Assembly (NCBI GenBank): GCA_913009315.1
Contig: CAJVZA010000012.1
Coordinates: forward strand, 1-36,843
Direction: 5' to 3'
Length of the DNA stretch: 36,843 nucleotides
Source of the DNA: an uncultured Hippea sp.
Lineage (GTDB): Bacteria > Campylobacterota_A > Desulfurellia > JAADFJ01
A program made the translations under genes and the position numbers. A model generated the notes under the pieces. It was given only the letters and a program-made list of their open reading frames with translations, did no database searches and was not told the DNA's origin. Shown here piece after piece: positions 1 to 33,447 of this stretch; position 1 is the stretch's first letter; each line of letters starts with the position of its first letter.

Positions 1-228
1 TGCATTCGGGCCTCTGTTAACATATTGATGAAAATATGTCGTGCTTCGTGGGCATCCCAAATACAAATATACGAGTGTAATTAAATCAAAAAAATAGACA
101 AAAATATCCCGATTAAGAATAACTAAATTTTTAAAATACGCATACCGGATATATATAGGTATGGACAATACTTTCAATCGTATCGTAAGTGCATATATCA
201 CCGATACAATTTACTCTCTGATAGCAAG
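1..228. other. Non-coding AT-rich stretch with inverted repeats
   Basis: No convincing reading frame is seen on either strand. Two inverted repeats stand out. CATACC (141-146) pairs with GGTATG (158-163) around an AT-rich loop. ATCGTATCG (177-185) pairs with CGATACAAT (202-210), 8 of 9 positions matching, around a 16-nt loop. Such clustered imperfect dyads occur at transfer origins, attachment sites and protein-binding regions, but no nic consensus is recognised, so no function is assigned. The stretch lies just past the predicted RNA terminator and may still be inside the conjugative element. Confidence 0.4.
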
Positions 229-550
229 AAAAAAACCGAGCGTTAAACAATGAACAACACTTGTTGCACATCTAAGCCGCTACCTTTTTCCGGTCTTACT
301 TTTTCGCTTTCGCGAATAAGAATCTCGTGCCGCGTGTACAGGGGCGTTTTCTGAAGTATAGGACTCGCAATTTTACATCGCTCTAAAACTGCACCTATCT
401 CCTGGTCCAAGTGATAAAAGTTACCAATTTTTTATCCTTGCTTACAATCATTATCCAATTTACTCAAAACCAACCGTGTCAGTTGTTTAACCTTATTGGT
501 AAGATAAGGTGTAGTGTTTTTGAGGTTGAAGATAATAAAGGGAATTTAAT
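229..550 (-). ncRNA. Predicted structured RNA of about 320 nt, unknown family
   Basis: A perfect consensus promoter at 557-585 should start a leftward transcript near 550. The transcript has no good ORF but folds into a series of local hairpins: ACCUUAU/AUAAGGU (510-490), AAACAAC/GUUGGUUU with one bulge (488-467), GAUAAAA/UUUUAUC (436-413), GCGAU/AUUGC (381-367), and a GNRA-capped stem UUCGC-GAAA-GCGAA flanked by CUUA/UAAG (320-295). Near the 3' end, ACCG and AGCG (294-278) pair with CGCU and CGGU (242-235) to close a branched domain. This is followed directly by seven U residues (235-229), as in an intrinsic terminator. It does not match what I know of 6S, tmRNA, RNase P, SRP RNA or common riboswitches. 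It could be a regulatory RNA of the element or the 5' leader of something further left. The folds were found by eye. Confidence 0.5.
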
Positions 551-556
551 ACTTTA

Positions 557-585
557 ATTATAGCTTAATACTTGATAAATGTCAA
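557..585 (-). promoter_or_regulatory. Perfect consensus sigma-70 promoter, leftward
   Basis: Read on the minus strand this is TTGACA (585-580), a 17-nt spacer, then TATAAT (562-557). Both hexamers match consensus exactly and the spacing is optimal. The -35 box overlaps the stop codon of the ybjQ-like gene, so the promoter starts a new unit rather than serving the tra operon. The start site would fall near 550. Confidence 0.8.
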
Positions 586-923
586 GGACTTTTTTCGCAA
601 TTTTGAACATTTTTTTTGACTTCGGTTCCGTATGCAGTTGCCATAACCATAACGTTGCTTTTGTTTTTAACAATCATATTGTTGTTGATTTGCACATTGA
701 TTATGCCGTCGACACCGTCGGATTCGGCATCCTTTATCATATTGTTTATTGCTCTTTTGATAGTATTTTGCATAACCCTTTCGTATCCAATATCATTGCC
801 GCCCATTTTGTCTTTCATATTAGACATAAATTGACTTATAGCACCTGTTTCTTTGATACCAACACCTACTGCGATGCCTAATAATTGACTGTTTTGTACC
901 TGATCGCTTGCTATAATAAACAT
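582..923 (-). CDS. YbjQ/UPF0145-family small protein
   Basis: A 113-residue cytoplasmic protein that resembles the YbjQ/UPF0145 family (PF01906), sometimes called heavy-metal-binding because of its fold. Visible family features are an early LGIAVG strand, a central MGG-x5-Y segment, a helix rich in Ala/Ile with GVDGIINV, and a C-terminal strand ending MVMATAYGTEV. The biochemical role of the family is poorly known. The start is supported by an AAGGAGG just upstream of the ATG. It begins 9 nt after the traN stop and is therefore the last visible gene of the tra operon. This is an unusual place for this family, which suggests an accessory or host-interaction role. The extension after GTEV is basic and not family-typical. 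Confidence 0.65.
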   Translation of the reverse strand: MFIIASDQVQNSQLLGIAVGVGIKETGAISQFMSNMKDKMGGNDIGYERVMQNTIKRAINNMIKDAESDGVDGIINVQINNNMIVKNKSNVMVMATAYGTEVKKNVQNCEKSP

Positions 924-16735: not shown

Positions 16736-17623
16736 TCAAAATGAGGAACGCAATTGATTTTTAATATATCTTTTGCATTTTTTGTTTATTAGTAATTTTT
16801 GCAGTTTTTTAATTGCGGCAGCATAAATTTTACTGATATTTGATTTGTCGCATTCAAAGCGATTCGCTATTTCGTCTATTGCCAAAACATTTTCACCAAA
16901 CACTCCAAAGCGCTTACTGATTACAAATGCTTCAATTGGCGTTAATTGACTAATTAAATATTTTGTTATTTTCATGTAAGTCTTTGTGCTCAAATTAGTG
17001 TCATTCTTTGTATTTTCAGCGTAAGAGTAAGAACAAGGAATATTTTCTAATTGATCTTTACTTATATTTATATTTTTAGGATATTTATTTACCGTTCCGG
17101 TTATCACTATTTTTTTAGTTTGAATTTTTATCGTAATTTTTGTTTGAACAAATTTAATATCATATCTAATTGAAATAAGAAAATTGTTTATGCTGCCGAT
17201 TGCAGAAGATGACTTTGTCGAATAAATATTTTTATATTGTATGAATTTGTTAGATTTGATTATATTCAGAAGAATATCTCGATATTCATAATTAATATCA
17301 ACAAAAAATGAGATGTTAATAATTGGATGAAGAATAGTTTTAAAGATTATATTCCTCGCTTGAATATATGTGTAAGTTGAGAGACTTGATTTGGATTGAT
17401 CAAACTTGTTTTTTTGTTTGATTTCGCGATATGCGATATAAACAATTTGGCTTATTTCGTTGTAAAAATCTGCGTAGCTGCCAATATTGTAATAACAAAA
17501 ATATTTATTTGACAATTTAACTATTATTTTTTGCATTGCATTTACAGTTTGCACATTTTTGTTTTGTTCAAACAAAAAAATGTTTTTGATTTCGGTATTC
17601 TGTATCAAAAAATCATGCTGCAT
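16736..17623 (-). CDS. Sigma-70-like regulatory protein
   Basis: A 295-residue, very Lys/Ile/Asn-rich protein. The C-terminal 60 residues look like sigma-70 region 4: QLTPIEAFVISKRFG, then DEIANRFECDKSNISKIYAAA and a helix with IKKLQKLL, i.e. the HTH that reads -35 boxes. An upstream segment (AYREIKQKNKFDQSKSSLST then YTYIQARNIIFK) resembles the end of sigma region 2 (core binding, -10 recognition), although it is degenerate. It lies between the replication origin and the tra operon, same strand, 86 bp before traL. I infer a positive regulator or alternative sigma factor for transfer genes. The start is uncertain: this ATG has GGAG about 13 nt upstream, and the frame is open further upstream. 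Confidence 0.6.
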   Translation of the reverse strand: MQHDFLIQNTEIKNIFLFEQNKNVQTVNAMQKIIVKLSNKYFCYYNIGSYADFYNEISQIVYIAYREIKQKNKFDQSKSSLSTYTYIQARNIIFKTILHPIINISFFVDINYEYRDILLNIIKSNKFIQYKNIYSTKSSSAIGSINNFLISIRYDIKFVQTKITIKIQTKKIVITGTVNKYPKNINISKDQLENIPCSYSYAENTKNDTNLSTKTYMKITKYLISQLTPIEAFVISKRFGVFGENVLAIDEIANRFECDKSNISKIYAAAIKKLQKLLINKKCKRYIKNQLRSSF

Positions 17624-17833
17624 AATTATGCGTGAACTCCTACAATCCAGGCAGCATTTTTTGCCAGCGGCAGGCAAAAAGCTCGCAGCGCCAGCGGGGC
17701 GGGGGTAGGGGGTGGAGTCTTTTGGCCGATGTTGGTGGGTTTTCTGAAGAGTAAATGAAAAAAAGATGGGTATTTTTTTTCTTTTTTGCCTATAAAAAAA
17801 GCGTGCCTAAAGCAAAGCCTTTTTTTATTAGGC

Positions 17834-23168: not shown

Positions 23169-23411
23169 AAAGTGTATGCTATATGCAATATCAATCTAAC
23201 ATGACGTGTTATGTAAAATGTTCAGTGTTTCAAAACAAGTTATGGAGATTCAACTCAAAGCGATAGATTCTGAGCTTCTTGCGCTTAAAATCTAACCAAA
23301 ATTTTCGATATTAGGATACAAATAGGATACAAAAACAAAAAGAACCATTAAATTTCTTTTTTTTCTTTTCCCTTTTGCTCACAAATCTTGTTGACATATA
23401 AGGGATTATTG

Positions 23412-23488
23412 TGGTGCCCTTGACAGGAGTCGAACCTGTGGCACAGGGATTAGGAATCCCTTGCTCTATCCATCTGAGCTACAAGGGC
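23412..23488 (-). tRNA. tRNA-Arg (anticodon CCT), CCA encoded
   Basis: Minus-strand cloverleaf: acceptor GCCCTTG/CAAGGGC, D arm GCTC/GAGC, anticodon stem AGGGA/TCCCT with loop TTCCTAA (anticodon CCT, reads AGG), T arm ACAGG-TTCGACT-CCTGT, discriminator A, then encoded CCA (23414-23412). All stems pair without mismatch. The 3' end faces the conjugative element, the usual geometry for element insertion at a tRNA 3' end. Confidence 0.96.
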
Positions 23489-32086: not shown

Positions 32087-33447
32087 TGAGTAATAATACA
32101 GAATACGGTAAACAAAGTTTTGAGAAATACTGCGAAGAGGCATTCGGAATCAAGAATGTTTTTGAAAAACCTGAAGCGTTCAAAGGATACCGGGTTTTGT
32201 CCTGCACGCAATATATTCTGGGACCGGCGGCTGCGAGCTACTTTGCCGAACTTGGTGCTGAGGTAATCAAGATAGAACTGCCCAAAGCGGGTGAACCAAT
32301 GAGACATACAACTCCGTTTAACGAGCCGTATTTGTATCCTCTTTCAAGATGGTATCCCGATAAGGGAACCGGTCTTGGCTTTTTTGGCGCAAATCCAAAT
32401 GAGTATTTTGTCGGATTAGATTTTCATAAGGAAGAGGGCAAGGAAATAATGCTAGCCCTCGCCGCAAAATCAGATCTAATGGTTGAGAATTATCGTCCTG
32501 GAACATTCGACAGATGGGGTATCGGATATCGTCAGCTAAAAGAGGTCAATCCGAAACTTGTCTATCTATGGGCAGGTGGATTCGGCGGATTCGGACCTGG
32601 AAGATCAAGAGCATCGTATGATATTCTCGGTCAGTCACAAGGCGGCAACTTCTCCATTACCGGACAGCCTGCAGATATGCATGGTCATCCATCCAAACAT
32701 ACGATCTGGCTTGCCGACTATTGGGGCGGAATGATGGGCGCAATAGGAGCTTTGGGCGCACTCTATTGGAGAAACAACAAATCGGGCGAAGGTCAGATGA
32801 TAGAGTATTCTCAGGTTCACGGGATACAAAGACAGCTTGAATATTCGCTACCTATGTGGGGCAAGTTCGGTATAGTGCGTCAGAGATGGGGAAATTGGGA
32901 CACCGAGTTATCTATTCATGGCATTGTGATGTGCGGAAAGTCTTCATATCCCGATTCAGACAATCCTCAGGAGCAGGAGGAGGGCTTTATATTGATTAGC
33001 GCACATAAGGATGCCGATTTTGCTCGATTAGCCGAACTGATGAATAGAACTGATCTTTTGGATGATTATGCCAGTCACAGTGCACGTGTTTCTCCTGAAG
33101 GTCAAAAATATCTTTATAGTGAGATTGCAAAATGGGCAGCTGACAAAACAAAGGAGGAAGCTGCTGAAATATTGCACAGTCACGGCATTAATTGTCAGCC
33201 GGTCTGTAATTCTAAAGAAGTTGTGGAAAATCCTCATTGGCAAAAGCGAGGTGCTATTACATGGATTGATGACCCGTCATTCGGTGATGTATTGACTCAG
33301 GGTGCATTTGTTCATATGTCTGATACTCCTCCAAGAGTAAAATGGGCGCTCAAACCTGTTGGTGCCGATAACCATTATATTTATCAGAAACTTCTTGGGT
33401 TTGACGATGGAAAGATCACCGACTATGAAGATAAAGGTATTATCTAA
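32086..33447 (+). CDS. CaiB/BaiF CoA-transferase, catalytic subunit
   Basis: A 453-residue family III CoA-transferase. Motifs: FKGYRVLSCTQYILGPAAA, FAELGAEVIKIELPKAGEP, VENYRPGTFDRWGIGYRQL, NPKLVYLWAGGFG, then SYDILGQSQGG with the presumed catalytic Asp179. A glycine-rich GGMMGAIGALGALYW helix and C-terminal VKWALKPVGADN follow. It is about 30-35 percent similar by eye to the preceding subunit and translationally coupled to it (TGATG). Together they should transfer CoA between carboxylic acids without ATP. Equivalent pairs act in anaerobic toluene, methylnaphthalene and phthalate pathways. The exact substrate cannot be read from sequence. Confidence 0.88.
   Translation: MSNNTEYGKQSFEKYCEEAFGIKNVFEKPEAFKGYRVLSCTQYILGPAAASYFAELGAEVIKIELPKAGEPMRHTTPFNEPYLYPLSRWYPDKGTGLGFFGANPNEYFVGLDFHKEEGKEIMLALAAKSDLMVENYRPGTFDRWGIGYRQLKEVNPKLVYLWAGGFGGFGPGRSRASYDILGQSQGGNFSITGQPADMHGHPSKHTIWLADYWGGMMGAIGALGALYWRNNKSGEGQMIEYSQVHGIQRQLEYSLPMWGKFGIVRQRWGNWDTELSIHGIVMCGKSSYPDSDNPQEQEEGFILISAHKDADFARLAELMNRTDLLDDYASHSARVSPEGQKYLYSEIAKWAADKTKEEAAEILHSHGINCQPVCNSKEVVENPHWQKRGAITWIDDPSFGDVLTQGAFVHMSDTPPRVKWALKPVGADNHYIYQKLLGFDDGKITDYEDKGII

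Follow-up and report, generated by a model that had tools for sequence, protein, structure and literature searches.

A strong sigma-70 promoter stands where the traN-side operon of an ICE ends, and we tentatively propose that it may drive a short, constitutive transcript from the intergenic sequence, about 320 nt long and probably non-coding, which would end near position 229 of the window, that is, of the complete 36,843-nucleotide contig C12. The proposed transcript would be mostly untranslated, would stop near a U-run at 229 and would be confined to this ICE or very close relatives; perhaps it is an element-specific small RNA. Should it be functional, the simplest arrangement would be a constitutive small RNA acting in cis, antisense to transcripts that read through from an apparently converging operon, or alternatively one acting in trans by base pairing. 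Any function, including the regulation of transfer, entry exclusion or host RNA polymerase suggested by a sequence-only reading of this DNA, is speculative. In its present state the locus is an orphan promoter with a putative transcript that lacks comparative support, and is mainly a candidate.

The promoter lies across the end of the last gene of the operon, and the features from which the transcript is predicted are as follows:

582-923, minus strand: 113-aa ORF of the YbjQ_1 family (putative heavy-metal-binding; PF01906, E 8.8e-13), last gene of the traN-side operon
557-585, minus strand: perfect sigma-70 promoter, TTGACA-17-TATAAT (sequence, promoter scan, shuffles)
229-550, minus strand: inferred transcript of ~320 nt, starting ~7 nt past the -10 box and ending at the U-run (from promoter and U-run)

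A 17-base spacer separates the -35 box TTGACA (585-580) from TATAAT (562-557), and the -35 box shares bases with the TGA (584-582) of the YbjQ-like ORF, which itself follows a 1403-aa TraN (F_T4SS_TraN, E 1e-24). The earlier observation of a consensus promoter over the last stop codon of the tra operon was therefore correct. This is the sole 12/12 sigma-70 site in the window, where the mean expectation from 300 dinucleotide shuffles is 0.057, and it stands at the junction of a gene end with roughly 500 weakly coding bases. Judged from the sequence, it is a real promoter, somewhat above chance expectation, and it probably drives the transcript; an autonomous small RNA gene should have its own promoter, and the 12/12 consensus would supply one. 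Consensus promoters appear to be in use in this ICE, because its second 12/12 site (C15:10884, minus strand, on another contig of the genome) immediately precedes a Cro-like HTH gene that has a good ribosome-binding site.

The extended reading of this genome covered two contigs, C12 and C15. The 49-bp 3' end of a tRNA-Arg at window 23409-23457 recurs as a direct repeat with 98% identity at C15:3669-3717, adjoining a tyrosine integrase (C15:3865-5019; Phage_integrase, 4.5e-35), and further on C15 encodes a TraD-like coupling protein and TraG (TraG_N, 1e-50), as well as pilin-like and TraH-like proteins identified by eye. Because of the repeat, the integrase and the transfer genes on C15, we assign the two contigs to opposite ends of a single ICE, whose predicted att ends are marked by the repeat. 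We infer that C15 and C12 adjoin; if they do, the RNA, whose direction on C12 is leftward, would point towards the traG operon of C15, which runs rightward. Inverted repeats lie just past the U-run at window 172-209 (ATTGTATCG...CGATACGAT) and, beyond it, at about 140-163 (CATACC...GGTATG), and these may serve the facing operon as terminators or operators. Elsewhere in the element, the TraD-like protein (C15:16245-20255) has an HD domain (PF01966, 8.8e-6) within the C-terminal half and may be fused to a further transfer function, and a protein encoded where the traLEKB operon begins (window 16736-17677, minus strand) carries a sigma-70 region 4-like C-terminus and may be an ICE-encoded sigma-like regulator. 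The end of C15, at about 32280-32335, contains apparent Illumina adapter sequence (AGATCGGAAGAGC...) that is read as the TraG C-terminus (RSEERRVGKECRSRWSP) and looks like an assembly artefact.

Within the predicted transcript, the following structures can be drawn:

448-538, minus strand: predicted 5' junction domain of an outer stem, a CUCAAAA/UUUUGAG stem and two hairpins (minimum-energy fold; not above background)
408-440, minus strand: predicted hairpin (drawn from the fold)
353-402, minus strand: predicted long hairpin (minimum-energy fold)
294-321, minus strand: hairpin UCUUA-UUCGC-GAAA-GCGAA-AAAG-UAAGA with a GNRA loop (sequence and listed pairing)
229-293, minus strand: branched closing domain with U7 run, a possible weak terminator (sequence and pairing; absent from the terminator scan)

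The RNA had been described as structured, with at least five stems, one of them with a GNRA loop. Such stems can indeed be drawn, including UUCGC-GAAA-GCGAA, but as a set they fall within the fold background of the same element. The fold of 225-552 has a z of -1.98, with 4 of 100 shuffles equally good, and that of 229-552 has a z of -1.83, a value equalled or undercut in 19% of 192 equal-length stretches from C12 and C15, coding stretches included; the stability above background expected of a conserved structured RNA was thus not found. Among 120-nt tiles on this strand of the region, the lowest z was -1.71 and none reached the background 5% tail of -2.71. A similar division applies to the closing branched domain and seven-U terminator that had been reported. 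The seven-U run (235-229) and the branched stem exist, but the stem before the run is weak and bulged (CCG/CGG, a 9-nt bulge, then AGCG/CGCU), the terminator hairpin scan listed no terminator at 229, and, in the minimum-energy fold of 225-552, the U-run pairs with GGAAAAAG instead.

Comparison with other sequences returned no relatives. Rfam (4227 families), applied to the whole window at gathering scores, identified tRNA only, and positions 1-700 gave no match up to E 5, in agreement with the initial view that the RNA is not placeable in a known family. Searches by blastn against the own genome, 60 relatives, plasmids and phages produced chance-level matches only; an exact 32-base core was not found in viral contigs; and a single-sequence covariance model of 229-405 recovered only itself in the own genome and related tra loci, and in 145 other genomes no match went below E 0.15. 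Homologous elements were sought via TraU, TraC and YbjQ. TraU identity to the nearest tra systems is 42-44%, and that of TraC to the best plasmids is below 30% among the matches listed; on these comparisons, the ICE is remote from every element searched. In one Nitrospirae locus (L040), a radical-SAM-like gene (identified by eye) follows traN after about 30 bases, and there is therefore no room for such an RNA there. Because no homologue emerged from blastn, the covariance model or neighbouring genes, we see no sign of selection on the transcript.

Taken as an RNA gene, the locus has in its favour the U7 at its end and a transcript that holds no ORF with a credible start; against it stand a fold within background, a weak terminator, the lack of a homologue and unremarkable base pairing with the ICE's translation starts, none of the 46 being outstanding. 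A somewhat unlikely alternative is that there is no functional unit here, only a promoter, accidental or relic, in AT-rich spacer DNA, transcribed spuriously into RNA whose folds are ordinary and random. In its favour, a perfect promoter turns up in about 6% of shuffled windows, the fold z is typical for the element and no search revealed conservation; against it, the site is exact, is placed exactly after the last gene and is followed by a U-run at a plausible distance.

The transcript had also been said to contain no ORF, which overlooked the following frame:

243-431, minus strand: 62-codon open frame, stop at 245-243, TTG at 410 (ORF list; no Shine-Dalgarno at the TTG)

This frame is stop-free from 431 to 246, would encode 55 aa from the TTG and spans most of the 3' half. 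By chance, a start-to-stop ORF of at least 55 aa occurs in 8% of whole-transcript shuffles and 1.7% of 3'-part shuffles, and an open frame of at least 62 codons in 15% and 8%, respectively. The 62-codon frame is compatible with chance, and it makes no strong case for a gene because shuffles yield such frames often enough. That the transcript is instead the mRNA of a small protein of 55-62 aa, possibly from a decayed or frameshifted gene, is distinctly unlikely. The frame does cover most of the higher-GC 3' half, its GC by codon position (0.55/0.31/0.42) follows a gene-like pattern, and the 1.7% obtained with 3'-part shuffles is low, but the start has no Shine-Dalgarno, the codon usage score is neutral, between genes and non-genes, and no homologue was found in 25 genomes of the class, plasmids, phages, Pfam, PHROGs or viral contigs. 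Two tblastn matches (E 0.5 and 2), to unannotated parts of Paraburkholderia plasmids, were judged to be chance. Homologues or a credible translation start would identify a small protein gene, and the frame has neither; with codon usage also ambiguous, that candidate was rejected.

The preferred reading thus stays with a constitutive, probably non-coding transcript of this element. A more ambitious version of it, in which the transcript would be an element-specific new structured RNA required for or controlling transfer of the ICE family, in a role like that of sgm-sRNA but unrelated to it, is highly unlikely. The structured functional RNA originally put forward is not supported, given a fold within the element's background, the absence of a homologue in anything searched and an open frame over much of the 3' half.

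The hairpins could also act as DNA, in a single-strand origin, an oriT or a recombination site. The sequence GCGAAAGC forms an exceptionally stable DNA mini-hairpin, a stability that would suit such a site, as would the position in an intergenic gap of a conjugative element. Even so, this is most improbable: no relaxase gene adjoins, a genome search for TraI_2 gave one sub-threshold match, on contig C26, and a complete double-strand promoter suggests ordinary transcription.

A guide-RNA role was tested because the same ICE has an IscB inside its tra operon. This divergent IscB (C15:23660-25285; L054:4161-5786, plus strand) is a 541-aa frame with RRXRR and HNH that scores 97 bits against an NCBIfam cut-off of 175, and its best PDB matches are IscB structures; upstream of it is a sub-threshold HEARO-like RNA (19 bits against an Rfam cut-off of 83). 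At a second locus (C15:13542-14064; L053), a HEARO RNA (RF02033) above the Rfam cut-off, at C15:13832-14064 on the minus strand, is followed by a truncated IscB of 90 aa, the N-terminal part only. A structured guide RNA transcribed from its own promoter is conceivable, but both IscB loci carry in cis an RNA with the HEARO 5' signature GUCAA(C/U)UACCCC...GGAGCUUG, whereas the GUCAA-UACCCC...GGAGCUUG 5' domain is not in the window RNA, which has no HEARO match even at E 5 and nothing significant by blastn against C15; the reading of the transcript as a trans-encoded omega RNA for IscB is largely refuted, its probability vanishingly small, and we dropped this candidate.

Among known regulatory RNAs, the HEARO or omega RNA of IscB (RF02033) is comparable as a structured RNA that occurs in the same ICE, once above and once below threshold, and differs from the window RNA by its 5' signature and by the failure of the latter to match it. 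FinP-type antisense RNAs of F-like plasmids resemble the candidate in being small, constitutive and part of an F-type transfer region. FinP itself, however, has about 80 nt and the traJ leader as its antisense target, whereas the window RNA overlaps no traJ-like leader and does not pair remarkably with the translation starts of its ICE. In Salmonella Genomic Island 1, sgm-sRNA arises by processing of the 3' end of a longer primary RNA. It is encoded between mpsA and oriT, is conserved across elements of the SGI1 family and has been shown to be needed for mobilization (PMC9299015). Like it, the window RNA would be an RNA of an integrative element, beside transfer functions, with a promoter that is strong by sequence and with stem-loops; unlike it, the window RNA has no oriT or relaxase nearby and no conservation, and is known from sequence alone. 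Although location and ancestry differ, sgm-sRNA sets a precedent of an integrative element dependent on an RNA of its own, and if a discrete RNA is made from the promoter described here, this ICE would be a further case of a small RNA encoded by an integrative element next to its transfer genes.
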